Assembly: GCA_029856685.1 (NCBI GenBank)
Contig: JAHKKZ010000007.1
Coordinates: 1-39,534 of the forward strand
DNA from: Candidatus Njordarchaeota archaeon
GTDB taxonomy: Archaea > Asgardarchaeota > Njordarchaeia > Njordarchaeales > Panguiarchaeaceae
DNA length: 39,534 bases
Direction of reading: 5' to 3'
In this document: one piece after another, positions 9,030 through 39,534 of the stretch
How the letters are laid out: every line of letters starts with the position of its first letter
Numbering within the stretch: the stretch's first letter is position 1
Notes under the pieces: model-generated
Databases searched by the model: none
What the model was told of the DNA's origin: nothing
What the model saw: the letters and a program-made list of their open reading frames with translations, nothing else
Made by a program: the position numbers and the translations under genes

Positions 9030-10919
9030 ATGCCAGGCGGGTATATGGGCAAGGTTCTCCGTGTGAACCTAACCAAAGGCAAGATAAAAGAAGAAACTAT
9101 TCCGGAGGAAGTTCTACGCAACTGGATCGGAGGAAGAGGGCTAGGCGTATACATAATGCTTAAAGAGGTCGATCCAAAAGTAGATCCACTAAGCCCAGAT
9201 AACAAAGCTATTGTCTTAACAGGACCTCTCGTAGGTGTCCTAGGAGTTCCATCTAGTGGTAGATGGTGCTCGGTTACTAAGTCCCCACTAACAAATACAA
9301 TTCATGATAGTCACTGTGGTGGTAAGTTTGGTCCTGAACTAAAATTTGCTGGTGTGGATGCAATCATTATTGAGGGTGCCGCTAAGGAGCCCGTCTATTT
9401 GTGGATTCACGATGGGAAAGCTGAGCTACGTTCAGCTAAGCATCTTTGGGGTCTAGATGTCCATACAACTACTGACATGATTAAAGAAGAACTTGCTAAG
9501 GAGATTGGGAAAGATGAGGCTGATAAGATCAAAGTTGCTTGTATAGGGCCCGCAGGAGAAAATCTAGTTAAATACGCAGCGATAATGAGCGACTATAATA
9601 GAGCTGCAGGTAGGGGCGGACATGGAGCCGTTTGGGGCTCAAAGAAACTTAAGGCAATAGCTGTGAGAGGACATATGAAGGTACCAGTAGCTGATGAGGC
9701 TAAGCTCAAAGATGCCATTGCCAAGGCTATGGAGAAGATAAAAAAGAGCCCAGTTACTTCTGAATCCCTACCCACCTATGGAACCGCTGTGTTGGTGAAC
9801 ATTATTAATCAGCATGGAATACTCCCAACAAGAAACTTCCAGACCGGTGTATTCCCTGAAGCTGATAAAATCAGTGGTGAGACACTAGCTAAGACTTTAC
9901 TTGACAAGGAGCTCGTCAAGGAGGAAATCTGTTGGGGATGCCCAATAGGTTGTGCTAGGGGTACAAGAGTAACGACTCCTCCCTGGACTGGTGAGGGAGG
10001 AGGCCCAGAATATGAGACTATCTGGGCATTTGGGGCTCAGACTGGAACAAGTAATCTGGAGGCAATAACAAAGGCTAATTATCTATGTAATGAGCTTGGG
10101 TTGGATACCATCAGCATGGGTCATACGATTGGTACGCTAATGGAGCTTGCAGAAAAAGGAAAAGTTCCCAAGGAGAAGCTAAGAGGACTCAGAGTTGAAT
10201 GGGGAAGCGAGGAAGCTATAGTGGAGCTCACATGGAGAACAGCTTATCGTTCTGGAATAGGTAATGACCTAGCTGAGGGCGCACTAAGATTGGCTGAGAA
10301 ATATGGTGCGCCAGAGCTGGCTATGGTCGTCAGGGGACAGGAGCTTCCAGCATATGATCCGAGGGGAGCTCAAGGGCATGGACTTGCGTATGCCACAAGT
10401 AATAGAGGAGGATGCCACGTAAGAGCATACATGATCTCACCAGAGGTTCTTGGAGTTCCAGAACTCATTGATAGGTTCTCAACAGAAGGAAAAGCAAAGC
10501 TGGTCAAACACTTCCAGGATGTATTCGCTGTTATTGATAGTTTGGTCGTATGTCTGTTCACATGTTTCGCTATATGGGCAGAGGAGTACGCCGCATTGCT
10601 CTCCGCGGTCACTGGGTGGAATTATACTGTTGAGGACATAGAAAAAATCGGAGAGAGAATATGGAATGCTGAGAGAGCTTTCAATGTCCTTGCATTTGGA
10701 GATGGACGCAAATATGACACATTACCTAAGAGACTTCTAGAGGAACCCATGCCCGAGGGGCCCGCCAAAGGATATGTCGTGAAACTAGATGAGATGTTGG
10801 AGGAGTACTACAAGCTACGTGGATGGATCGATGGTAGGCCAACGAGAGCAAAGCTTGAGGCGCTGGGACTTGACTGGGTTGCTAAGAAGCTTGAGAAGGC
10901 TGGGCTTCTTCCTAGCTAA
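9030..10919 (+). CDS. Tungsten-type aldehyde ferredoxin oxidoreductase family enzyme
   Basis: The 629-residue protein spans the full AOR family, which oxidises aldehydes to carboxylic acids with ferredoxin, using a bis-pyranopterin tungsten (or Mo) centre and one 4Fe-4S cluster. The N-terminal domain shows GKVLRVNLTKG, GGRGLGVYIM, LTGPLVGVLGVPSSGR and GGKFGPELKFAG. The cluster ligands are visible as Cys301, Cys304 and Cys308 in CWGCPIGC, with Cys508 in DSLVVC as the fourth; Cys512 is an extra one nearby. GTSNLEAI, NELGLDTIS and YDPRGAQGHGLAYATSNRG are further family blocks. The start is ATG 9030 with GGTG 6 bases before it. A divergent moaD-moaD-moaE operon provides cofactor genes next door. 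Length is typical; the exact aldehyde is not predictable. Confidence 0.95.
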   Translation: MPGGYMGKVLRVNLTKGKIKEETIPEEVLRNWIGGRGLGVYIMLKEVDPKVDPLSPDNKAIVLTGPLVGVLGVPSSGRWCSVTKSPLTNTIHDSHCGGKFGPELKFAGVDAIIIEGAAKEPVYLWIHDGKAELRSAKHLWGLDVHTTTDMIKEELAKEIGKDEADKIKVACIGPAGENLVKYAAIMSDYNRAAGRGGHGAVWGSKKLKAIAVRGHMKVPVADEAKLKDAIAKAMEKIKKSPVTSESLPTYGTAVLVNIINQHGILPTRNFQTGVFPEADKISGETLAKTLLDKELVKEEICWGCPIGCARGTRVTTPPWTGEGGGPEYETIWAFGAQTGTSNLEAITKANYLCNELGLDTISMGHTIGTLMELAEKGKVPKEKLRGLRVEWGSEEAIVELTWRTAYRSGIGNDLAEGALRLAEKYGAPELAMVVRGQELPAYDPRGAQGHGLAYATSNRGGCHVRAYMISPEVLGVPELIDRFSTEGKAKLVKHFQDVFAVIDSLVVCLFTCFAIWAEEYAALLSAVTGWNYTVEDIEKIGERIWNAERAFNVLAFGDGRKYDTLPKRLLEEPMPEGPAKGYVVKLDEMLEEYYKLRGWIDGRPTRAKLEALGLDWVAKKLEKAGLLPS

Positions 10920-16524: not shown

Positions 16525-18228
16525 TTGCATATATTTAAAAAACTTATTCCCGTCGAGGAGGCACAGAGAATCCTCATTTCCTATGCACGGGAAGTCAAAG
16601 AATGCGAAGAGGTAGATATTGACAACGCGTTAGGTCGTGTAGTTGCTGAGGACATCTATGCTGGGATTGATATTCCAGGTTTTGATAGAGCGACGAGAGA
16701 CGGATATGCAGTTATCGCTGAGGACACATATGCGGCTTCTGAGAGAACACCTATTAAACTTCAACTACGGGGCTATATTAAGACAGGTTCATATCCTAAA
16801 AATATCCTAACACATGGTGAGGCGTTTAGAATAGATACTGGGGCTTCTCTGCCTAGGGGAGCAAATGCTATTGTCCCCATAGAGTATACTAGTGAAGAAA
16901 ATGGATACGTCATAATCTTTCGTAGAGTCTCTCCTTGGGCAAATATTCAGTGGGCAGGTGCAGATATCGCTCGTGGTGAGATAATAGTTCAGAGGGGAAC
17001 AATAATAACTCCTCGTCATATAGGAGCACTAGCTGGTATTGGATACCCAAGGATCAAAGTTAGGAGAAAACCCAAAGTGGCCGTCTTCTCGATTGGGGAT
17101 GAATTGATAAGTGTCGACTCAAAACTTACTCCAGGCAAAATATATGACATAAACATTCATACGCTGACATCTCTAATTAGAAAATCTGGTGGCGAACCTG
17201 TTGTTCTTGGCATAGCAAAGGATAGCACCGAGTCTATACTAAAAAAACTGAAGGAGGGTTTAGAAGTAGCAGATATCATTATCTCATCAGGAGGCTCGTC
17301 TGTAGGCCAATCCGATTTTATCCGAGCAGCTGTGGAGGAGCTGGGGGCTGAAGTTCTTTTCCACGGAGTTATGAGTAAGCCTGGGAAGCCCGTTCTAGGG
17401 AGCAGGATCGGTGATAAACTCTATATAGGTCTTCCTGGAAATCCAGCTTCAGCTATTCTGAGCTTCATTCTCTATGTGAAGCCTGTTATCTCCAAGATGC
17501 TGGGAATAAAGCCTACTCATAGAACCCCAGGAGGACTTGTGCTGAAGAGGCGAGAGTATGGTGTTAAGGGCCGAAGACTCTATAAAACTATCGCTATTAA
17601 GAGGAGGAATAGTGATTATGTCTATGAGTCGCTCCCAGCATCCTCAGAGTCTATATCTACATTATCAAAAGCTGATGCGTACTTTATCATACCAGAGGAT
17701 ACAGAGTTCATTGATTCTGGGATTGCGGTAAATCTAAGCTTCTTTGATGCTCAACCACAACTAGCTGGCATATTCATTGTTGGGGAGTACTCACCCAGTA
17801 TTCTCAGATCCATAATATCCATAATTGGAGACAAATACTTAGTTAGATATATCCGGAGAGACTATGAAGCAACCTTGCTTGCTGTCGAAGAAGGAGTCGC
17901 TGATATTGCCATATTCACAAAAGAAGTGAAAAACTCAATAAGACTAACCCGTAAAATCGCCCTTGCAGGAGATGCATCACGAGGAGACATTGTTACTGCG
18001 ATGAGAAATATCGAGGGAGAGAGAATCATAGTTGTTGGCTCTCATCAATCTGCTATACTAAGATATCTCAACGGTCTTGCGGAAGCTGTCATTGCGCCTA
18101 AGGAGCTTTTAGATTTATATGGTGTTGAGGAATATAGAATAATAGGTCAAGAACCCCTCTACATATACGCCTCTAGAGATCTGTCTGAGATTATAAGAAA
18201 TGTTCTGAAGAATCTAAGTAATCTCTGA
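16525..18228 (+). CDS. moeA: MoeA molybdopterin molybdotransferase with a C-terminal PBP-like domain
   Basis: MoeA inserts Mo or W into adenylylated molybdopterin. Residues 1-410 carry the family blocks: PGFDRATRDGYAV, VFSIGDEL, GGSSVGQSDFI, HGVMSKPGKPVLG and GLPGNPASAILSF. From about residue 420 a segment of about 145 residues (AGIFIVGEYSPSILRSII, VEEGVADIAIF, ALAGDASRGDIV, IIVVGSHQS, EAVIAPKELLDLYG) resembles the periplasmic-binding/LysR-type domain often fused to archaeal MoeA, but it is shorter than the usual ~220 residues. The start is TTG 16525, 6 bases after GGTGA. In FDRATRDGYA an Arg replaces the usual Met/Ala. The gene end overlaps the LRR gene convergently by 15 bases. A second moeA lies 10 kb away. 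Confidence 0.92.
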   Translation: MHIFKKLIPVEEAQRILISYAREVKECEEVDIDNALGRVVAEDIYAGIDIPGFDRATRDGYAVIAEDTYAASERTPIKLQLRGYIKTGSYPKNILTHGEAFRIDTGASLPRGANAIVPIEYTSEENGYVIIFRRVSPWANIQWAGADIARGEIIVQRGTIITPRHIGALAGIGYPRIKVRRKPKVAVFSIGDELISVDSKLTPGKIYDINIHTLTSLIRKSGGEPVVLGIAKDSTESILKKLKEGLEVADIIISSGGSSVGQSDFIRAAVEELGAEVLFHGVMSKPGKPVLGSRIGDKLYIGLPGNPASAILSFILYVKPVISKMLGIKPTHRTPGGLVLKRREYGVKGRRLYKTIAIKRRNSDYVYESLPASSESISTLSKADAYFIIPEDTEFIDSGIAVNLSFFDAQPQLAGIFIVGEYSPSILRSIISIIGDKYLVRYIRRDYEATLLAVEEGVADIAIFTKEVKNSIRLTRKIALAGDASRGDIVTAMRNIEGERIIVVGSHQSAILRYLNGLAEAVIAPKELLDLYGVEEYRIIGQEPLYIYASRDLSEIIRNVLKNLSNL

Positions 18229-19446
18229 GTCATGTTCTTCGATAATCTCCTCTAGGGTTTTCATCAAAACATTCACGCCTAATCTCTTAAGCTTGGCTAT
18301 CTGCTCAGTAGGAACATCACAACCACTAATATCCACGACTTTAAGTCTCCTAAACCGTTTTACTAGCCGTATTACCGGTGTTAGGTCATGGATAGGTGTT
18401 CCATCCAAATATAGCCTCTCGAGCGACTGGAGTTTTTCTACTACGGATATATCATAGATAAAGCAACTTGATATGTCGAGAACCCTAAGAGCTTTTAATG
18501 CGGCTAGATCTGATATGTCCTCGACAAGAGTGCTACTTACATCAAGTATTTCGAGACCCATAAGATTTCCTATCTCACTAAGCCTATCAATTCCTGTATT
18601 GGAGAGATTCAGCACCCTTAGTGATTTTAGTTTACTAAGAAACTCTGTCTCATATATGTTTGTGTTTCCGAGGTCAAGAACCTCAAGATACTTCAGATGT
18701 TCTATAGGTCTGGGATTCTGCATCGCCGTTGCATTGAGACTAAGTTCTCTGAGAAATCGCAACTCTTTGATAAAACCTATTTCTGAGACCTGAGTGTTAT
18801 TTATGTGAAGTACCCTTAGGTTTTTTAGTTGTGAGAGAGCACCACAATCATATATCTTTGTTGCGCTAAGGATTAGACGGCTAAGTTTTCTTAGTCCACC
18901 AAGCAGTTCGCATTCTGAGAATTGCGTTCCACCCAAATTGAGTATTTCCAGATTCCTTAGCTTGGATAATGTTCGGAAATCACCTATAATTCTTGCAAAC
19001 CAGAGACTAAGTTTTCGAAGCTTTCTTAGCCTACTGAGAGGCGATATGTTCTCTATGTATGTCTTATCTAGGATTAACTCCTCAAGCTCCCTAAGACTTG
19101 AGATCGGATCTATTTTCTCAACATTCACACAGCCCCTCAATGAGAGTTTCCTCAGCTTCTTAAGATGTTTGAGGGGGCTGAGATCCGCTATTTTTGTGTA
19201 GGATAGATCAAGCTCCATGAGGTTCCTAAGATTTTTCAATGGGTCTAAGCTCTCTATGCGCTTACAGTTACGCAGTGAGAGCCACCGTAGGCTTCTAAAT
19301 CCCGATATTGGTTCTAGATTCTGTATGGGAGTATCACTAAGATCCATACCTACTATCTTGCCATTCTCTATCTCGCAATATATGTTTTTGCCTAACTCCT
19401 TGGATAATAAATCCACAATTTGGATTTGGGGCTGTTTCTGATTCAA
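18214..19446 (-). CDS. Leucine-rich-repeat protein (SDS22/internalin-like repeats)
   Basis: About 14 tandem repeats of 22-23 residues cover nearly the entire protein. The consensus is LRxLRxLxLxxTxIxDxxPLxxL, as in NLMELDLSYTKIADLSPL, LRVLHINNTQVSEIGFI, YLEVLDLGNTNIYETEFL and ALRVLDISSCFIYDISVV. This is the 22-residue LRR class seen in SDS22 and internalins. There is no signal peptide or membrane segment, so it should be a cytosolic protein-binding scaffold. The first 40 residues (VDLLSKELGKNIYCEI) form a cap. The chosen TTG start at 19446 lies 7 bases after GGTG; the track start is GTG 19458. Long LRR proteins are uncommon in thermophilic archaea. The partner is unknown. Confidence 0.88.
   Translation of the reverse strand: MNQKQPQIQIVDLLSKELGKNIYCEIENGKIVGMDLSDTPIQNLEPISGFRSLRWLSLRNCKRIESLDPLKNLRNLMELDLSYTKIADLSPLKHLKKLRKLSLRGCVNVEKIDPISSLRELEELILDKTYIENISPLSRLRKLRKLSLWFARIIGDFRTLSKLRNLEILNLGGTQFSECELLGGLRKLSRLILSATKIYDCGALSQLKNLRVLHINNTQVSEIGFIKELRFLRELSLNATAMQNPRPIEHLKYLEVLDLGNTNIYETEFLSKLKSLRVLNLSNTGIDRLSEIGNLMGLEILDVSSTLVEDISDLAALKALRVLDISSCFIYDISVVEKLQSLERLYLDGTPIHDLTPVIRLVKRFRRLKVVDISGCDVPTEQIAKLKRLGVNVLMKTLEEIIEEHDSEIT
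18290..19400 (-). repeat. Imperfect ~66-69 bp tandem repeats encoding the LRRs
   Basis: The protein periodicity is mirrored in the DNA, with recurring minus-strand AGxxTTAGG / CTAAGxxT blocks every 66-69 bases. The copies have diverged in sequence, which points to old duplication with maintained protein structure rather than recent slippage. Confidence 0.55.
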
Positions 19447-19460
19447 AATTAGCACCACTT

Positions 19461-24775: not shown

Positions 24776-25795
24776 ATGGCTGGTGCTAAGGCTGATGAGA
24801 AGTTTAAGAAACTTCAGGCTTATGTTGAGATGGTTATTGACAGCAAATTGGAGGATTGGAGGGTTACTAGGAGAGATCTTAGGGCTATTTTGGAGAGGCT
24901 CAATGAGCTTCGGACTCAGGGGAATTCTCTTCTTCAGAGGCTCTCGGAAATCATCAATAATCAGGATTCTATTAAGGGACTCCTAGGGGAGATGCGTTCA
25001 GATGTTAAGCAGAGATCTGAGCTCATTGTTTCGAGAATCGATATGTCAGCGAAGAATATTATTGATTCTTATGCGAACCTCAGAAGCTTAACTATGAGTA
25101 TCCAGACTCAAAACAAAGAGATCTCCGAAAGACTAGAAGAATTCTTCTCTACATTCAAAACTTTTCGAGATGTAAGCGAGAAAACACTAAAAGGCATTCT
25201 TGGCTATCAGAAAGAAGCCATGGCCAGTTTAGGCAAACTAAAAGAGATGATAACACAATTAGGAAGCGAGCATAACGATCTACAATCTACAGTTGGGAAT
25301 ATTATGAATTCTATTCCGAAAATCCTTGAAAAACAGAGAGAAACTGACAATAAACTAGATAAAATAAGCATCTCAATCTCACAGATCAGTAGTGGTGTTG
25401 AGAAGCTCACGGGAGACGTAAATCAAAAATTCGAATCCATTAGAAATACCATCAAACATAGCTCTGAGGAGAACCTTAGAAGAACTCAGGAACTCATAGA
25501 TAGTCTCACGTCTCGTATTTCGAATCTTGCCTCAAGAATAGAAACTGTCAGTAAGAAACAGGAGAGGATCTTAGAGATTATGGGTGTTATGGACAGACAC
25601 CAAAAGACACAAGAGGAGACATTCAGAGAGATAAGTAGTGAGATTAAGGATATTGCTAAGAACTTTACTCTGCTAAAACAGATATTTGAGTATGTGGAGT
25701 CACTATCAAGAAAAATAGAGACACTCTCCGAAGAGCTCAGCAAGATAAAAGCTATGCTAGAAAAACTAATGGGAGAGGAAAAGGATTCTACTTAG
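24776..25795 (+). CDS. Long coiled-coil protein
   Basis: Not assigned to a family. From residue 5 to the end, almost all of the ~340 residues show heptad spacing rich in Leu, Ile, Glu, Lys, Ser and Gln, without Pro or membrane segments. Examples are LERLNELRTQGNSLLQRLSE and IETLSEELSKIKAMLEKLMG. This predicts a parallel rod, perhaps cytoskeletal, SMC-like or receptor-like in shape. The ATG at 24776 follows GGTG by 6 bases; the track start at 24758 is upstream of that site. The end overlaps the subtilisin gene end convergently by 8 bases. Confidence 0.75.
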   Translation: MAGAKADEKFKKLQAYVEMVIDSKLEDWRVTRRDLRAILERLNELRTQGNSLLQRLSEIINNQDSIKGLLGEMRSDVKQRSELIVSRIDMSAKNIIDSYANLRSLTMSIQTQNKEISERLEEFFSTFKTFRDVSEKTLKGILGYQKEAMASLGKLKEMITQLGSEHNDLQSTVGNIMNSIPKILEKQRETDNKLDKISISISQISSGVEKLTGDVNQKFESIRNTIKHSSEENLRRTQELIDSLTSRISNLASRIETVSKKQERILEIMGVMDRHQKTQEETFREISSEIKDIAKNFTLLKQIFEYVESLSRKIETLSEELSKIKAMLEKLMGEEKDST

Positions 25796-28244
25796 GCTTC
25801 CTCCTCATCCGCGGTAGGACTACTCTGAATACTAAATATGCTATGGAGAGCACTACGAGTAATGCTATTACTACTATTATCTCTATTTTCATCCTAATGT
25901 TTATTTTCCCAGACTCATATGCTACCAAGGAATCTCCAGCCCTATCGTTATCCGCATCCTCCACCTCAACAACATAGTACATTGTTTTGCCATTCCACTC
26001 AGATTTGACTTTAATCTCCGCTTTCCAGATATGCTTTCTCTGATCGTATGAGAGATTAAAGACGCCGTCGGCTAGGTCAAGACTATACTCATCTATTGGA
26101 TAATCTATCCGCCAGTACACTTTAACACTAGCTACTCCACTCTCTTCGTCATGAGCCTCAACTTTAAATATTATCTTATCGCCTAGCAATGTTGTGTCCG
26201 CATTAACAGATATTATCTTGGGAGGCTTGGAATCATCATCATAACCATAGAACATAGTTACGTTCTCTACTACATATGTCTTATTTCCGATGATATAGCT
26301 CACATTGGCATCCACCACAACTAAGCCTTCATCGGCAAAACATCCATTAAGAACTATTTCTATCTCCTCATTCACACCAATTCTGTCAATCTCAAATATT
26401 GTTTTGTTAAGCTCCATATTCTCAGTCTTCACCCTTAAAACCACATCTTCAGCAACATCCTCAGCATTGTTCTTAATTCTAAGCGTAACATTCCTAAATT
26501 GTGCATCTGAAATCCTATCTAGTGTTGGCATAATTAGATTCAGAGTCCTAGGCTTTCTAAGAGGCTTCGTCGATACTATGGCGACACTATCCAGCATTGG
26601 TCCATCAGCCCTATAAACCTTCTCTATGATAAGCCTATATGTCCCAGACACATTGGCTTGAAAGCCTATTTTGATCACATTATTTGTCGATTCCTTATGA
26701 TCATATACTACATGTCCATTAGGATCAATTATACAAACCCTAAAAACACCTATTTTGTAAAAGGAAAGCAGATTATTTGGAACACGCCACCAAACCATAC
26801 CCAATGAGAAACTCTCCCCACTTAGCATGTCAAACTCATAAATAATCCTGTTTCCAGAACTCACATTTAAAACAACAACATTGTCTATTACTTGGAGAGC
26901 GTTCCTAAGGTTCAGATATCCAAACCCATAGCGATTATTTGGAGGATTATCGCCCCAGAAATCGGCAGATAATATTATCACAGCCTTTGTTGCCAACGCT
27001 AAACTCCCAATCTCTGGCTTTTCATTTGAAAGATAACTATATATCAGTGCTGCCGCGCCAGAAACAATCGGTGTAGCAAAACTAGTCCCAGACCCCGTCG
27101 TCAGTGCACCTCCAACAGTATACGTCGTTATTCCAACTCCCGGAGCAACCACGTCTGGTTTAATCCTACCATCCTCTGTCGGCCCAACACAGCTTCCAGA
27201 CCATAGGCTATCATCTGACCTATCAACAGTATTTTTATCATCCATAGCTCCAGTAGCTATCCCATTGAACGCATCTGCAGGTATGTTGACCCCGCCATAT
27301 CCGCCTTCGACATTCCCAACAGCAATCACAGCCACAGCATCGTATAGATACGCCAATTGATCAATAAGTCTTGTTATTATTGATGAACCATCAGGTATCA
27401 GTCCAGCAGCGGCATTTTTGGGGGCACCAATACTCAGGTTTATTATTTCTGCTGTGTCTCCTGCTTGGATCAGAGCCCACTCAATAGCAGCCATAACATC
27501 ATCCAGTATTCCCTCTCCATTGCGGTTCAAAGCTTTGGCATTTATTAAGTTAACACCATACGCTATACCCCTATATTTCTGATCTCTACTCGCAACAATA
27601 TGAGCAACTTTCGTTCCATGACCATTAAAATCGGATGTTGTGGGCTCCCCAGTTGTGAAAGACTTAGCATCAATTATTTTCCCCGAGATGTAGGATGTCT
27701 CCGAGATACCAGTATCAACAATGGCAACTTCTATGCCCTTAATAAGATCATCATACTCAGATCCGTTCCAGCCCAGAGACCAGAAGTCTGGAGCATAAAC
27801 AGCCTTCGCAGCGACATCCATTGAGACCCTTACTTTGAATACAGGGATTATGTATCTTACTATATCACTTCTTCTTAGCTTATCAAGCTTATCTGCGGGA
27901 ACACAAGCACTAACAGCCCCTATCGATGCGATCCTATAAATTATAGTCCCTCCAAGTGATCTCAGTTCCGCAAGTAAATCGTTGAATGCGCTCTCATAAG
28001 CACTGAAAATCTTCGAGTATAATGCTTTCCTAGCAATATCAAGCTCTCTTTCTGTTTTGGAACCCCAGATACTCATCATAGCTTCTTGGATTATGTGTGG
28101 AATGCTCTTTCTCTCCTTTAGAAATATTAGGACCCTCACCAAAGAAGATTTCCTCTTATCACCAAAGCCCCAATCGAGTCGGTTTATTAGAGGCACCATA
28201 AGTATAAGTACTAGGAGGAGAGCTTTAATTGTTTTCATAGACAT
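25788..28244 (-). CDS. Secreted, membrane-anchored subtilisin-like serine protease (S8)
   Basis: About 818 residues. A signal peptide (TIKALLLVLILMVPLIN) is followed by an I9-type propeptide (about 35-140, ending IVRYIIPVFKV) and the S8 domain. The triad is Asp177 in VAIVDTGIS, His209 in NGHGTKVAHI and Ser388 in GTSFATPIVSGAA. The oxyanion Asn311 is in VIAVGNVEGG. Residues of about 570-780 form two Ig/CARDB-like beta domains. A C-terminal membrane helix (IEIIVVIALLVVLSIAYLVF) with a basic stop-transfer end follows. The protein would be outside the cell, tethered by its C-terminus. GTG 28250 and ATG 28238 are other possible starts. It would degrade extracellular protein or process surface proteins. 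Confidence 0.93.
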   Translation of the reverse strand: MSMKTIKALLLVLILMVPLINRLDWGFGDKRKSSLVRVLIFLKERKSIPHIIQEAMMSIWGSKTERELDIARKALYSKIFSAYESAFNDLLAELRSLGGTIIYRIASIGAVSACVPADKLDKLRRSDIVRYIIPVFKVRVSMDVAAKAVYAPDFWSLGWNGSEYDDLIKGIEVAIVDTGISETSYISGKIIDAKSFTTGEPTTSDFNGHGTKVAHIVASRDQKYRGIAYGVNLINAKALNRNGEGILDDVMAAIEWALIQAGDTAEIINLSIGAPKNAAAGLIPDGSSIITRLIDQLAYLYDAVAVIAVGNVEGGYGGVNIPADAFNGIATGAMDDKNTVDRSDDSLWSGSCVGPTEDGRIKPDVVAPGVGITTYTVGGALTTGSGTSFATPIVSGAAALIYSYLSNEKPEIGSLALATKAVIILSADFWGDNPPNNRYGFGYLNLRNALQVIDNVVVLNVSSGNRIIYEFDMLSGESFSLGMVWWRVPNNLLSFYKIGVFRVCIIDPNGHVVYDHKESTNNVIKIGFQANVSGTYRLIIEKVYRADGPMLDSVAIVSTKPLRKPRTLNLIMPTLDRISDAQFRNVTLRIKNNAEDVAEDVVLRVKTENMELNKTIFEIDRIGVNEEIEIVLNGCFADEGLVVVDANVSYIIGNKTYVVENVTMFYGYDDDSKPPKIISVNADTTLLGDKIIFKVEAHDEESGVASVKVYWRIDYPIDEYSLDLADGVFNLSYDQRKHIWKAEIKVKSEWNGKTMYYVVEVEDADNDRAGDSLVAYESGKINIRMKIEIIVVIALLVVLSIAYLVFRVVLPRMRRKPK

Positions 28245-28398
28245 TCTCACACATCTCCATGATATTGGGAATATCCCAATAAAAAACCAAAAAAGATAGA
28301 AATAAACAGGTTATGAGGCAGCATTAGAGTTTTTTAATAATGATTAAAGCTACCCCTTCTGAGCAATGATGAACCCGCGAAGGTATGATTCCAATAAC

Positions 28399-33221: not shown

Positions 33222-35876
33222 CTAATATTTGTTCCTTCTGGACATCTTCACATAGACTACGACGATGACTCCTGCAATAAGGGTTAGTAGTATTAGCATG
33301 CCCCAGCGAATTCCTCCACCGCCTTCTTCTCCTCCACCAGTAGGTGTTATTGTTAGTATGACTAGATTTGTGAATGTTGATAGTGCGTTGCCTCCTTCTT
33401 GCATTGTTCTGAGTACCTTGTTTGATATTACTAGTAGGCGTGCTCCTCCTTCATGATTAGTTTTGTTTCCTTCGTGCTCCATCTCCTCCCTAGAGTCTAT
33501 GTCCTCCATGTGTGACTCTTCATCTGAGATTTGATCTGGTTCGAATCTGCCGAAGTTGTATTCGATAAGCGTTGGTCTTATAACCATCTCACCACTATAG
33601 TTTGCTACAACCTTAACTGTGATCTTAACCCTGATTGTTTCTTCAGCTTTGATGGGTATCCATGGTGAGACTATTACGAGAACTCCGAGATCCTCCTTCA
33701 CCTCGACATATACATCAACAGCCCTTCCATTTATCTCCACTGAGATGACACCATTATTGCCAACACTCGTATTTATGTAGTCTGTTAATAGGAACTCATA
33801 GAATCTTATCTTCGTATCCGTGTCGCCCTCATTTGTAATGTTGATTGATATCGTGAGCTCACCAGTTGTATTGTCGTATGTTGCCAATTTCTCAATGTTG
33901 AGCTCAACGTGCGGATATGGGAATTCCCTCCTTAGGAGCCATCTCTGAATAATCCAGGGCATTGGTGGAACATAAATCATATAGCTATTCGTGGTGAAGC
34001 CAAGCGTCAGATTTCCTTCGGGAGTTTCTACGGTGAATTCGACATATCCAAATACTGCCCAGACGCCAGCTCTAAGCCTTCTGTCGAAGCTTAGACTAAA
34101 TGTGTGTACGGTCTCGTTATCTTCTCCTCTAATAATGTTCAGCTCATCTAGAGTAGCTTCTGCGACTTCATTTAGCTCAAGTCTTGAGACAATACTAGCT
34201 GGTTTGGACAAGAATAGTTTTGCCTTGATATCGAAGAACCTATCGATTTCGATTTCTGGGTTCTCTCCAGCAAAGACAGCGAGTGTTAAGTTGAAGTTGA
34301 ACCTGTAGAGAAGATCTTTTTCGTCGATTGGCTCTACTCCCGTCGGAATCAAGCCAGCTATTGTTCCTAGAGCTGCTCCTGGAGACACAACAAATCCATT
34401 AGCAATCACAAAGTAGTCTTTTCCTTCAATATCCTCATATGTTACTATTGGGCCCATCCAGAACGATAACGCAACAGCTAACGTGCCAAATCTCTCTCCA
34501 ATTATTCCGGGTATCAATAGGACACTGAAATTCAATAGGACTGTTTCGTTTGGTCCTATTCTATCAACAGTTGTTACGAATGCGTCCATATACGCATCGC
34601 CGATCTTCGTGTTATACTCTATTGTCCAGTTAGCACCAGATATAAATTCGCTGATGTTCTCGCCGAAATGAAATGCCATTGCATTTAAGACCCTTCTAAA
34701 GTCACCTACTAGTGGTAAAGCTACTCTAATATTTAAGGCATCTCCCTCACCTAGGTTCGCTATTGCTACTGTAAATGTCACATTTAGGGCGGGCCACGTC
34801 TCCAGAAAGTGCTGATATGTTGTTCCAGTTATATCCAATATGAAGAACATGCTTGTCATTATTGGCATCGTCTCCAGTTCTGCTGTGAAGTTGAATGCCT
34901 GCATGTATATGACTATATCATCAAACGTTCTGCTGAAGTTCTCCGCTTTGAGCAGGTATATGAATCTTCCTGAGAATTCGTATAGTGGGTTGTCTGGTAT
35001 TGTTGATCTGTTCTCATCAACTTCTAATGGTAGGTATGAGTGGACTGTGAGGATGCTATAGTTTGCTGTGGGGTTTGGCTCTATTACCGCCGTTGTCCCC
35101 AGATCTAGGGCTTCTTTTACTGAGAATTTGAACCATTCGCCTTCCTCTGTTATTGCGTCTGGAACCATAGTTGCAAGGATGAGTATTGGGACGAATTCTT
35201 CGGTGTTGTTATCTTCGTCGACGTCATAATAATCTCTAAATAGTGTTAGTGCTGCTCTGGTGTATACTTCCTCATTCATATTTGCCTGTACTATTGATGA
35301 ATATGCGAAGCTTGTTAGACCTTCTGTGGGGAATTTTGATATAATCTCATTGTTCATGAATTCTATTGTGCCGCTTAGGTTTAATTGGGCCGTGAATAGA
35401 AAGGCCGATCTATGCTCGTCGCCAAATGACCAGAGTGGATAGAATGTTATGTTTAGCGAATCTCCAACTTTATCGGCTAGACTCTTTGCGAGTGGTGTTG
35501 CCTCCGACTCGGATTTGTTATAATGCAGTATTAATGTTATCGTTGGTGGTATCTCTGGGCAGATATCATGGTGATAGTAGAGCCACCACCTATGTCCAAT
35601 ACCACCAGCTATTCTCATCGCTACTAATCCGTCGAACTCGGGCCAGCTTGGATCTACTGGTACTTCGATGCGGCCTCCTGCAGCCAATAGTACCATAGCA
35701 ACATGTCCAGCCTTACCTATATAGAAGTTAGCTGCCTCCGCATATACATTTATGTCTGTTGTCGTTGTGACTTTTGTGGATATGTTGTGTGTGCTTTCTA
35801 TACTATACATGCTATTAACTAAGACGATAGGGCTCATCAATATTAGCAGGGCTACTATGACTGCTTCCTTCCTCAT
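33222..35876 (-). CDS. Large secreted, C-terminally anchored surface protein
   Basis: About 884 residues. A signal peptide (KEAVIVALLILMSPIVLV) is followed by a beta-rich ectodomain with many N-x-S/T sequons. It includes repeated Ig/CARDB-like stretches, for example LNIEKLATYDNTTGELTISI with a following NITNEGDTDTKI. An acidic, His/Glu-rich stalk (HMEDIDSREEMEHEGNKTNH), a GGGEEGGGG linker and a C-terminal transmembrane helix (GMLILLTLIAGVIVVVYV) with RRNKY come next. The layout is that of an archaeal surface or S-layer-associated glycoprotein; no enzyme motif is visible. The ATG at 35876 follows GGTGGG by 5 to 6 bases; the track start is GTG 35885. The ArsR-type gene follows. Confidence 0.8.
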   Translation of the reverse strand: MRKEAVIVALLILMSPIVLVNSMYSIESTHNISTKVTTTTDINVYAEAANFYIGKAGHVAMVLLAAGGRIEVPVDPSWPEFDGLVAMRIAGGIGHRWWLYYHHDICPEIPPTITLILHYNKSESEATPLAKSLADKVGDSLNITFYPLWSFGDEHRSAFLFTAQLNLSGTIEFMNNEIISKFPTEGLTSFAYSSIVQANMNEEVYTRAALTLFRDYYDVDEDNNTEEFVPILILATMVPDAITEEGEWFKFSVKEALDLGTTAVIEPNPTANYSILTVHSYLPLEVDENRSTIPDNPLYEFSGRFIYLLKAENFSRTFDDIVIYMQAFNFTAELETMPIMTSMFFILDITGTTYQHFLETWPALNVTFTVAIANLGEGDALNIRVALPLVGDFRRVLNAMAFHFGENISEFISGANWTIEYNTKIGDAYMDAFVTTVDRIGPNETVLLNFSVLLIPGIIGERFGTLAVALSFWMGPIVTYEDIEGKDYFVIANGFVVSPGAALGTIAGLIPTGVEPIDEKDLLYRFNFNLTLAVFAGENPEIEIDRFFDIKAKLFLSKPASIVSRLELNEVAEATLDELNIIRGEDNETVHTFSLSFDRRLRAGVWAVFGYVEFTVETPEGNLTLGFTTNSYMIYVPPMPWIIQRWLLRREFPYPHVELNIEKLATYDNTTGELTISINITNEGDTDTKIRFYEFLLTDYINTSVGNNGVISVEINGRAVDVYVEVKEDLGVLVIVSPWIPIKAEETIRVKITVKVVANYSGEMVIRPTLIEYNFGRFEPDQISDEESHMEDIDSREEMEHEGNKTNHEGGARLLVISNKVLRTMQEGGNALSTFTNLVILTITPTGGGEEGGGGIRWGMLILLTLIAGVIVVVYVKMSRRNKY

Positions 35877-36131
35877 ATAACCCACCTAGTTTTGTTTTCT
35901 AATGTAGAAAGAACACAATTTCGTGGTTATAAGTTCTTCTACTCAAATATGCTTTAGGAGACAAACTCAAGAAGTTTTTTGCTGACTACTAAGATTTGTA
36001 GTTAGTTTTATTCAACAGAACTCCTATCCAGGGGGAAGAGATAAGCTTATTGCTCAGATTTAAGAGGGGGGCTGTTCTGTATTTAGGTATTATCTATATC
36101 TCATCGGTGGTCGTGTTGGGTGATTGGATGA

Positions 36132-36794
36132 CTATTCGACTACGATTTCTTCTTTTTTGGATTCTCCTAGGAGAGCTGCAATCAGTATGAGTATCAGATA
36201 TGTTAGTGTGCCGAGTATTGCTATGTCACTGTTGTAGGCAAGAGATCCTAGTATGTATACTGCAGGCACTAATATCAAGGCAATTATTGTGTCAGGATGC
36301 TTTATGATTATGTTACTTGTTAGAAAACCAAGATCGCTGATTGAGGGAAAACCGCAGACAGCAATGGATATGATCATCCAAGCAAGAAGCAATGCTCCTT
36401 CACTATGACCATATTCAAGGGATAGTATGAGAAGTCCTTTTAGGAGTATAAGAATTGGTAGCGATACTATGAGTGGCGAAATAGCCACCAAGCCTAGTCT
36501 CCAAGTACTAAGCTTATATGTGTCTGCCGATGTAAACAATCCAGCTCCGAAGCTCTCTCCAATGGGGCTGATCCTAAGAGCTGTATATGGTTTTATTCCT
36601 AAGAGTCGGGATAGTAAATAGTGTGAAGCAATATGGATGAGGACTCCGGGGAAAAGAAGCAACCCTATGAATTTAGACATGCCGCTCCAGCTGTACTGTA
36701 TGATCAGATATACTATCCATGCTAATATAAGGAAACCTATGTTGAGCGAAATAGATATCATAAATGAGGATATAGATCCTAGCCAAAGTCCCAA
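36132..36794 (-). CDS. M50-like membrane protein with HIASH in place of HExxH
   Basis: A 220-residue protein with six or so hydrophobic segments. The second half of the first block reads LLLFPGVLIHIASHYLLSRLLGIKP. It resembles the FPGVxxHExxHxxxAxLLGxK signature of archaeal M50-like (site-2 protease-related) membrane proteins, and SPIGESFGAGLF plus GLVAISPLIVSLPI match their later part. The catalytic Glu of HExxH is Ile here, so peptidase activity is doubtful. The start is TTG 36794, 6 bases after GGTGA. It may be an inactive, scaffold-type member. A short AT-rich gap separates it from the surface-protein gene on the same strand. Confidence 0.6.
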   Translation of the reverse strand: MGLWLGSISSFMISISLNIGFLILAWIVYLIIQYSWSGMSKFIGLLLFPGVLIHIASHYLLSRLLGIKPYTALRISPIGESFGAGLFTSADTYKLSTWRLGLVAISPLIVSLPILILLKGLLILSLEYGHSEGALLLAWMIISIAVCGFPSISDLGFLTSNIIIKHPDTIIALILVPAVYILGSLAYNSDIAILGTLTYLILILIAALLGESKKEEIVVE

Positions 36795-37095: not shown

Positions 37096-37110
37096 TTAAA
37101 AATAAATTAT
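37096..37110. promoter_or_regulatory. AT-rich divergent promoter between the small ORF and radA
   Basis: GTTAAAAATAAATTAT can be read as a TATA element in both directions. It is 16-30 bases from the minus-strand small ORF start and about 35-49 bases from the radA ATG. Confidence 0.35.
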
Positions 37111-37144
37111 TGGAAGATTTTCTGGGTTCATTGCTGTGATTTTC

Positions 37145-38173
37145 ATGGCTAAGGAACCAACAATCCATGAGCTTAGGCTTTCTAAGCATACGTTAAATGC
37201 TTTGGAATCCGCTGGGATATACTACATTAAGGATTTACTTCTTTATAGTCCAACGAGACTTGCTGAGATTACTGGTCTCTCTAAGGAGACATGCGAGAAA
37301 GTTCTGGATAAGGCAATAGAGTTTCTGGATCGATATAGGAAGAAGTTTTTAACGCTCGAAGAATTGGAGAAAGTTGAGGAGAAGAAGATATTTATGTCGA
37401 CAGGAGCACATAGCCTTAATAGGCTTCTACATGGAGGATGGTGTGTTGGGGAGGTAACAGAACTTGCAGGACCCTATGCCTCGGGTAAGAGCCAAGCGTG
37501 TTTTACCGCATTGGCAACAGTCTTCCTTCCAATGATGAGCCAAAAGGAGATTCAAGAGATTTTATACGGTGGCGAGGAGACTAGAAGCTCGGAAAGAAAA
37601 GATGTTCATTGGGGTCTTAACGATGGAGATATATCAGCTGTGATAATTGATTCCGAGAGAACATTCTCTATTCAGAGATTTAGGAAGATTCTCGGAAGAT
37701 TCGGGCTTAACGAGAAGGAAATTATGAAGAAAGTTATTATTAGCAGACCAGAGAATGCTTGGGATCAGAAGAGGATTATTGAGAGTCTTGTTGGTGTTGT
37801 GAGGGAGAACAATGTTAAGTTGGTGGTTGTTGATAGCCTCACAAAGCTTCCTAGAGCCGATTTTTCTGGGCAAGGAGAGCTTTATACTAGGCAAAGACTC
37901 ATATTGGATATGGTGGAGAAGCTTAGGAGGATAGCCATAAACTATAGAGTTGTCGTTATTGTGACAAACCAGGTTGTGGCTACTCCGGGAGTGTTGTATG
38001 GTCGTGGATATAAACCTATAGGGGGACATGTATTAGCGCACACCGTTGATACACGCTTACTTCTCACACGAGCTACTGATCCATATAGAAAAGTCACGAT
38101 TTTGGATTCTTCGTGGCTTCCCCCTGGGGAATGTAAGATTAGGATTACCGATGAGGGAATAGCGGATGCTTAG
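37145..38173 (+). CDS. radA: RadA-family recombinase
   Basis: A RecA/RAD51-class protein of 342 residues. The N-terminal helix-hairpin-helix part (LSKHTLNALESAGIYYIKDL to TGLSKETCEKVLDKA) is followed by the STGAHSLNRLLHGGW segment. The ATPase core has Walker A GPYASGKSQ, Walker B VKLVVVDSLTKL, the L1 region, IVTNQVVATPG and GGHVLAHTVDTRLLL. It catalyses strand exchange in homologous recombination. Unlike standard RadA, the first helix after Walker A is followed by an insertion of about 25 residues (MSQKEIQEILYGGEETRSSE), and Walker A has PYAS instead of EFGS. It may be the main RadA or a divergent paralogue. GTG 37136 is the track start; ATG 37145 lies 4 bases after GTGAT. It heads a tight run of four genes. 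Confidence 0.85.
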   Translation: MAKEPTIHELRLSKHTLNALESAGIYYIKDLLLYSPTRLAEITGLSKETCEKVLDKAIEFLDRYRKKFLTLEELEKVEEKKIFMSTGAHSLNRLLHGGWCVGEVTELAGPYASGKSQACFTALATVFLPMMSQKEIQEILYGGEETRSSERKDVHWGLNDGDISAVIIDSERTFSIQRFRKILGRFGLNEKEIMKKVIISRPENAWDQKRIIESLVGVVRENNVKLVVVDSLTKLPRADFSGQGELYTRQRLILDMVEKLRRIAINYRVVVIVTNQVVATPGVLYGRGYKPIGGHVLAHTVDTRLLLTRATDPYRKVTILDSSWLPPGECKIRITDEGIADA

Positions 38174-38423
38174 CCAGGATGAGCTTAGGGACCTAGCAAT
38201 ATTTCTTACATCTTTTGGTAAGAACCTGCCAAATATTCTCTGTGACCCAAGCAGAATTCCTAGAACGCCAAAAACGCGGTTGTGGCTTGAAAGTGCGGAA
38301 AGGCTCGGTGTGATTGACATATCTGGCGATATTATAAGGATTAGAAGAGGGGGCATACAGAGTCTTATCGAAAAGATAAATAGGGCTTTTGATTATTGGT
38401 TAGATGAGCTTTCGAGGTCGTAA
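38166..38423 (+). CDS. Small protein of the radA-linked run, unknown
   Basis: An 85-residue protein whose ATG lies inside the radA end (ATGCTTAG overlap of 8 bases), so translation is coupled. It begins LSQDELRDLAIFLTSFGKNL and has a helix-strand-strand segment TRLWLESAERLGVIDISGDI followed by IRIRRGG. This looks like a small winged-helix fold that could bind DNA or the recombinase. No family recognised. Confidence 0.65.
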   Translation: MLSQDELRDLAIFLTSFGKNLPNILCDPSRIPRTPKTRLWLESAERLGVIDISGDIIRIRRGGIQSLIEKINRAFDYWLDELSRS

Positions 38424-38426
38424 GCC

Positions 38427-38864
38427 TTGTCGTTCTTATGGAGACTTATACCCAATAAGCTTGCTAAGAGAATTAAGAAATATGTCCATGAGGATATTGA
38501 CGATAAGTATTTGAGGAGGGCATTGAATATAGCTAAACTTGAGAAAACTGAGGAATCCTTTGACACCATCGAGTGGAGGGGGTGGAGCGAATCATACCAA
38601 TTGCTGGAGAGAATTCTCAATGTTCTTAGTGGGTTTGGTGGAGCATTTCTGTATGCCTTAGAGCTGGGAGAATTCTACTTCAGAGAACTTCAGATGAAAG
38701 TAAGATCAGCAAAAGTTACGAGGGCTTGGATAAAAAACGCTACAAGCATAGGTCTTATTAAGAGAGACAAGAATTCTCATGGTGTTACACGCTATCAAAT
38801 CGATCAGCAAATGCTGGATAAGATCCGAGGAATTCTTGTGGGAGCGTTAGAGGATCTAATATGA
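38427..38864 (+). CDS. Winged-helix-like protein of the radA-linked run, unknown
   Basis: A 145-residue protein starting at TTG 38427, 3 bases after the previous stop. A basic N-terminal part (NKLAKRIKKYVHEDIDD) leads to a helical middle (SESYQLLERILNVLSGFGGAFLY), and the end looks like a winged helix (SAKVTRAWIKNATSIGLIKRD, GVTRYQIDQQ). I do not recognise the family. Its last bases overlap the start of the next gene as ATGA. Position suggests a role with the RadA-like protein in DNA repair. Confidence 0.65.
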   Translation: MSFLWRLIPNKLAKRIKKYVHEDIDDKYLRRALNIAKLEKTEESFDTIEWRGWSESYQLLERILNVLSGFGGAFLYALELGEFYFRELQMKVRSAKVTRAWIKNATSIGLIKRDKNSHGVTRYQIDQQMLDKIRGILVGALEDLI

Positions 38865-39534
38865 GGTTTATAGATAATATACTCGCGGAGGTAATTATTA
38901 GGCTTGCTGACAATTCATCGAGCTTTGCGGAGATCTCAGAAAAGTTGCAAGAGGTAGTGCCAAGAGGATTTATTCCCATGGTATTAAGAGCGCTTGAGAT
39001 TTTCTATGAAGAGAAGACATACAGTTTACCCCCAGAACTTATAGCTGCTTGGAAGAAGTATTCTGGCACGTTCATACGCCTAGATGAGTTAGATGATATG
39101 ATAGATGAGTTCTGTGCCAAGTACAACCTCAATAAGAAGCAATTTTTGATGTGGTTCAATGGAGAGAAAAGACTTATGAAAAAAGCGGAGGTAAACCCAG
39201 AACTACTAGCCAGAACAGTTAATTTCTTCATATTCAGAAGAATTATTCGTAAGGCAACAAGGATCATAGCATACTTACCTAGAGCTACTGGTGGATCTAT
39301 AGTCAAGGAGGTCTTGTTTATGTCCAAAAATTTAGGGGCTAATGTCAATATTCGGAACGAATCCAAAATAATCATCGAGATATTACCAGGCGAGCTTAGC
39401 CTCGAGCCCCTATCCGTAGCACTCACATCCGCTGAGATCATTGAGATTTTTCTACCAAATGGTAAGAAGATTTTGATTAGGGATATCCCCATCTTAGCGA
39501 CTTTCAGACCAAAAGTCTTCGATAGTTCGTTGGA
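38861..39534 (+). CDS. Protein running off the right edge, possibly DUF790/Bax1-like
   Basis: Absent from the ORF track because it has no stop in the window. It begins ATG 38861, overlapping the previous stop (ATGA), and is open for 224 codons. The N-terminus is helical (NILAEVIIRLADNSSSFAEI). Segments such as LPPELIAAWKKYSGTFIRLD and EVNPELLARTVNFFIFRRII recall the DUF790 family, whose best known member is Bax1, the nuclease partner of the XPB helicase. The match is by eye and weak, and no XPB gene is visible here. The reading continues beyond 39534. The remaining gene will decide this. Confidence 0.6.
   Translation, partial: MRFIDNILAEVIIRLADNSSSFAEISEKLQEVVPRGFIPMVLRALEIFYEEKTYSLPPELIAAWKKYSGTFIRLDELDDMIDEFCAKYNLNKKQFLMWFNGEKRLMKKAEVNPELLARTVNFFIFRRIIRKATRIIAYLPRATGGSIVKEVLFMSKNLGANVNIRNESKIIIEILPGELSLEPLSVALTSAEIIEIFLPNGKKILIRDIPILATFRPKVFDSSL

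Follow-up and report, generated by a model that had tools for sequence, protein, structure and literature searches.

The question raised by this locus is whether a RadA-like gene and the three genes packed behind it encode a recombination or repair complex, as the first-pass annotation had proposed, or belong to a larger assembly. The window (the whole stretch of DNA analyzed, 39,534 nucleotides) is contig C220 of a draft Njordarchaeal genome, G000, which is 79% complete. The four genes lie at its right end on the plus strand. Gene A (37136–38173) encodes a RadA/Rad51 paralog of 345 residues and starts with GTG, with an alternative ATG at 37145; position 37096 carries no coding start in the open reading frame list. 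Gene B (38166–38423) encodes an 85-residue probable winged helix and gene C (38427–38864) a winged-helix protein of 145 residues, while the 5′ part of gene D (38861–39534), whose product has a C-terminal Bax1/DUF790 nuclease domain, runs out of the window. The open reading frames bear out the overlapping or abutting arrangement described at first pass: an 8-base overlap between A and B, a 3-base gap between B and C, and an ATGA overlap between C and D. The extension to the right that had been called for is provided by contig C52 (L003), whose first 123 bases equal the window's last 123 (39412–39534), base for base. Gene D is completed there (stop at L003:472), giving a total of 340 residues. 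In addition to the remainder of D, C52 carries a nucleotidyltransferase gene, the helicase gene F, and genes G and I; no further contig overlaps the right end of C52. The nucleotidyltransferase, a lone MNT-type protein of 115 residues encoded right after D (L003:486–833, plus strand; Polbeta, E-value 1.4e-11), separates D from F in G000 and is missing at that position in the sister species G001.

In G001 (L027), the A-B-C-D row is found with the identical 8-base overlap, 3-base gap, and 4-base overlap. Between the two species, proteins A to D are 50 to 81% identical, with pN of 0.13 to 0.31 against a saturated pS of 0.75 to 0.80; since pN lies far under saturated pS, all four are constrained proteins. 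Given these values in all four genes and the identical junctions, the coupling of A, B, C, and D is more than chance. All the genomes compared are draft assemblies, and gene starts are approximate.

The product of gene A matches the Pfam Rad51 family (E-value 1.2e-50), confirming its RadA-like nature, and has an N-terminal helix-hairpin-helix domain at residues 9 to 59 (HHH_5, 1.3e-3; RNA_pol_A_CTD-type helix-hairpin-helix, 3e-8). Its Walker A motif, reported earlier as changed, reads GPYASGKS and fits GxxxxGK[ST], as it does in all nine aligned Njordarchaeal relatives (9/9), so that this claim was overstated; Walker B is intact as well. The reported insertion is real, about 27 residues past the Walker A helix, and in the alignment of Njordarchaeal relatives it is confined to the window's genus. 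The position of the FxxA polymerization motif is occupied by FLTL in the window, FMPI in G001, FVKI or FVKL in the copies of family f2, and FEKA in the lone copy of G008. Because its residues depart from FxxA, we name A a paralog and not RadA. The protein also scores under the curated RadA equivalog cut-offs, with 227.8 bits against 259 for NF003301 and 192 against 361 for TIGR02236. The canonical RadA of G000 is encoded on contig C1, apart from A, and a 52-protein tree groups the nine A proteins of Njordarchaeales on a single 100/100 branch, separate from the genome's own RadA; together, these two results rule out the window operon as the main RadA of the genome. On sequence grounds, then, A is a RadA/Rad51-family paralog, for which strand exchange activity is predicted at most.

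Close homologs of A are restricted to Candidatus Njordarchaeota (Njordarchaeales; B6_G17, B77_G9, M288, and others) and to the sister JZ-1.bin_83, which was deposited as Crenarchaeota. A scan of viral contigs returned no homolog of A, and a viral origin was rejected on this basis. Two extra, more divergent copies of the RadA paralog are found outside the locus in G002, a member of f2 (G002:C181, L033, and G002:C138, L034). A published Asgard tree contains a RadA duplication with a paralog clade that includes Njordarchaea (PMC12722695). A, likewise a RadA paralog of this lineage, is a candidate member of that clade; whereas the consulted parts of the paper give no description of a gene neighborhood, the window locus provides one.

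Of the two small proteins that follow, described at first pass as winged-helix-like, C is the better supported. It matches a fusion protein of f2 (phmmer, 1.9e-12) composed of a transmembrane (TM) helix and two winged-helix-like domains: C matches the first of these and B, more weakly, the second (hhalign E-value 1.3e-4, probability 53%). The relatives of C in f2 bear their TM helix at the N terminus. The AF2 model of the fusion protein was made without B, which MAFFT had set on the winged helix of C and not on the second one of the fusion; it is confident over the winged helix to which C aligns and poor elsewhere (mean pLDDT 60). A Foldseek search with this model gave best matches that are nearly all winged-helix proteins, at E-values of only ~0.01 to 0.05. 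As judged from the model, C is a winged-helix protein, in agreement with the earlier description, which for B holds in a weaker form: B is probably a winged helix. It is 64% identical to its G001 counterpart, with pN of 0.23 against pS of 0.77.

The resemblance of the fourth, large protein to the Bax1/DUF790 family, a studied nuclease family, is confirmed by a DUF790 match at residues 217 to 331 of D (2.1e-19). The match covers just positions 269 to 386 of the 387 in the profile, and the first ~215 residues of D match nothing in the Bax1/DUF790 family. The G001 homolog of D aligns with the Bax1 structure 6p66 (1.3e-12). D resembles the nuclease of the XPB-Bax1 system (PMC7293015) in its Bax1 nuclease domain and in retaining the acidic active-site residues aligned with Bax1 D305 and E318, the first Glu being shifted by one position from E275. 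It differs in that the XPB-binding N-terminal and central domains of Bax1 are not matched in D, and no XPB gene neighbors D in either G000 or G001. Only in these two genomes, which make up the window's genus, does D adjoin A; the order's other DUF790 matches fall in longer genes that stand apart, one of which is a second gene elsewhere in G000. The gene order is kept in the sister species, but since the nuclease stands beside A in one genus only, the conserved core is something other than RadA with these three genes.

Gene neighborhoods were compared among ten genomes placed in Njordarchaeales, which form four families, f1 to f4, of a phylum that also has Heimdallarchaeia-type genomes; the TM helix counts come from a simple hydropathy rule. 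Gene E (36132–36794, minus strand), divergent from A, encodes a membrane protein with about six TM helices that belongs to an order-wide family and in relatives is encoded beside H or F. Other Asgard membrane proteins with which E can be aligned bear HEASH, a motif of the HExxH type (weak Peptidase_M50 match, 1.2e-4, under the cut-off). In the Njordarchaeal E proteins the Glu is lost, the site reading HIASH in the window and HIASH or HVASH across f1, with the His gone too in most f2 copies, and only E relatives outside the locus retain HEASH. We infer from these motifs that E is a dead M50-type protease, now a structural or sensory protein. Distant E-like membrane proteins also occur in another Asgard family (f18; L064, L065, L066), where the genes are flanked in three genomes by the same two unrelated gene families, resembling another conserved cassette. 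Upstream of E, the window encodes an 887-residue secreted protein with TM segments (33222–35885, minus strand), unrelated to the Ig-repeat protein J of relatives. Other genes of the window encode a secreted subtilase (25791–28250, minus strand; 8e-39), a leucine-rich-repeat protein of 414 residues (18217–19458, minus strand; LRR_4, 6.7e-45), MoeA (16525–18228), and an aldehyde:ferredoxin oxidoreductase (9030–10919, plus strand).

Gene F encodes an XPD-family helicase of ~520 residues, with 31 to 42% identity between subgroups. The iron-sulfur cysteines C104, C118, C123, and C159 and the motifs GxGKT, DEAH, and QxxGRxGR are invariant in 8/8 sequences, and the Thermoplasma XPD structure is matched at about 1e-36. 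F is therefore like the XPD/Rad3/DinG proteins in its XPD-type iron-sulfur cysteines, its motor motifs, and its nearest structures, but unlike them it is divergent and encoded alongside membrane-protein genes. F also matches the PADLOC type IV DinG model (5.9e-43), a match expected for any helicase of the XPD/DinG family. Together with the helicase-nuclease pairing and the variable neighborhood, it could point to an anti-virus defense locus. We consider this very improbable: apart from F, no part of the locus convincingly matches a PADLOC defense model, the scanned viral contigs lack A, and the distribution is order-wide rather than patchy. A defense system was rejected as a candidate, PADLOC having returned the generic DinG match alone.

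The soluble protein H, of ~330 residues, occurs in 7/228 genomes of the phylum, all Njordarchaeales; the same search over 228 genomes detected none in the window's own, 79% complete genome. The AF2 model of H is confident (pLDDT 86), and nearly all its Foldseek matches in the PDB are Rad51/RadA, with E-values from 1e-4, a TM-score of ~0.3, and an r.m.s. deviation of ~14, while hhalign of H against the A family gave nothing. H (L029:6262–7269 and nine homologs) may, on this model, have a degenerate RecA-like fold without a P-loop. The small protein G combines a signal-like N terminus with a TM helix at its C terminus; I and T are TM proteins. J is large and secreted, and each of the three copies scanned contains Ig-like domains. 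Gene K encodes a GTPase of the Arf family (Arf, 2.5e-15 and 2.1e-19; Gtr1_RagA, about 1e-6), whose gene directly adjoins that of I in G001 and G003. This adjacency of an Arf/Rag-like GTPase and a TM protein recalls the Asgard small GTPase/roadblock/longin systems (PMC10933270), from which the locus differs in that K sits among helicase and surface-protein genes. A longin or roadblock nature of I and of the C terminus of K is suggested by eye only, and for I Pfam and PDB sequence searches gave no support. In sum, A, C, D, F, J, and K belong to known families or folds, G, H, and I to no family, and E has distant relatives only.

Genes of these families are assembled in twelve loci from 8/10 Njordarchaeales genomes, in forms that are rearranged, inverted, or fused. 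In G000, a draft genome in which neither J nor K could be placed, the order is E (−) A B C D, then F G I (−), and in G001 D C B A (−), E (+), H J (−), K I G F (+). G002 and G007, both f2, share the order C+B fusion, A E H G F, in which A is mid-operon and co-directional with the C/B fusion, E, H, G, and F, and the E-H-G-F junctions are 8-base overlaps each. G008 has E H G F; G006 divides the genes between two contigs, C H E and J I F; G003 has E H J and E H G K I J; and G005 has F J H E G T I C. Second copies read I T G E H F in G002 and T H F in G005. Of the remaining two genomes, G009, 12% contaminated, yields a weak E match only, and G004 (0.9 Mb) lacks E and H, its helicase match being marginal. 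Since these neighborhoods share recurrent families, the window operon is one edge of a conserved larger locus, of which we found no published account in open-license papers. A recombination or repair complex, as first proposed, is plausible, and a helicase is linked to the locus too, but conservation extends beyond the four genes to others for membrane and surface proteins and a GTPase.

These arrangements bear on the possibility that two unrelated units lie side by side, a cytosolic repair operon (A, the winged-helix proteins, and D) adjoining a membrane or surface locus. Such a juxtaposition would fit the solitary A genes of G005, G006, and G008, which lie apart from the locus, and the loci without A in other genomes; in G000 and G001, A-B-C-D are moreover transcribed away from E, and D belongs to a repair nuclease family. 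It does not account for the C-like winged-helix proteins with TM helices that are encoded in the membrane locus even where A is absent from it (G005 and G006), for the place of A in the middle of the operon in G002 and G007, or for the DNA helicase F encoded in the membrane locus itself. We regard two independent units as possible, though not the likeliest arrangement.

We favor instead, with a probability of roughly 40%, that A to D belong to a conserved Njordarchaeal locus encoding a membrane-anchored DNA-processing machine. DNA processing is read from the presence of a helicase, a recombinase, winged-helix DNA binders, and a nuclease, and the envelope location from the TM helices on E, G, I, and the C-like proteins and from the Ig-repeat protein J; the presence of the GTPase K suggests a switch. 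In this machine, E, G, I, the TM-anchored winged-helix proteins, and J would constitute an envelope platform, on the cytoplasmic side of which the winged-helix domains would hold DNA. The XPD-family iron-sulfur helicase F would open the duplex, and the RadA paralog A would load onto the single strand, there to search for homology or exchange strands. Trimming of the DNA would fall, in the window's genus, to the Bax1-type nuclease D, and the Arf/Rag-like GTPase K would switch the assembly. That the products form one complex with such a division of labor is our interpretation of their sequences, and its purpose may be DNA exchange with the outside, membrane-tethered repair, or segregation or holding of the chromosome. 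The link of A to the membrane parts may be loose, because three genomes carry A by itself and the draft genomes of f3 yielded no A next to the locus.

The same parts could also serve membrane-to-DNA signaling, the surface protein acting as a sensor, the GTPase and the dead M50-type protease as a relay, and the membrane-bound winged-helix proteins and a TFIIH-like helicase as effectors that alter transcription, with A as an accessory. TM-anchored winged-helix proteins do resemble membrane-bound regulators, a GTPase and a pseudo-protease are typical relay parts, and XPD has a transcription role within TFIIH. This scheme, however, leaves the recombinase and the nuclease unexplained, and we know of no archaeal transcription system made up of a surface protein, a GTPase, a pseudo-protease, winged-helix proteins, and a helicase; we therefore hold it to be unlikely.

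A narrower form of the membrane-anchored DNA-processing machine would be a machine dedicated to DNA uptake or to the exchange of DNA between cells. The locus does bring together a surface protein, membrane proteins, a helicase, a recombinase, and a nuclease, and in co-encoding membrane proteins with recombination genes it is like the Ced/Ted import systems (PMC11868833, PMC9905601), the Ted loci of Thermoproteales also encoding HerA and Rad50 (PMC9905601). In contrast to these systems, neither a VirB4/CedB-type ATPase nor a pilin was found in the Njordarchaeal locus; across the order, no VirB4-type ATPase rose above the cut-off in the ten incomplete genomes, two of which have sub-threshold matches. 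A ComEC search gave no match in the draft genomes of the order, nor in any archaeal control, so that these absences weigh little, and a channel role of E is only putative. We hold a dedicated exchange machine to be unlikely. A further, tentative proposal is a previously undescribed, order-specific machine spanning the envelope, in which a surface protein and a GTPase switch of eukaryotic type would be coupled to a helicase-recombinase module, for instance to pass DNA between cells.

Asgard archaea are the nearest known relatives of eukaryotes, and to our knowledge their DNA repair, exchange, and recombination have hardly been described. The present analysis puts into genomic context a RadA duplication of Asgard archaea so far described from trees, and offers a testable gene set consisting of A, C, E, F, G, and H. 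A second RadA copy in a conserved neighborhood with helicase, DNA-binding, membrane, surface, and GTPase genes and, in one genus, a repair-type nuclease gene suggests an undescribed membrane-tied DNA-handling machine. If real, the locus would tie eukaryote-type membrane signaling to recombination.
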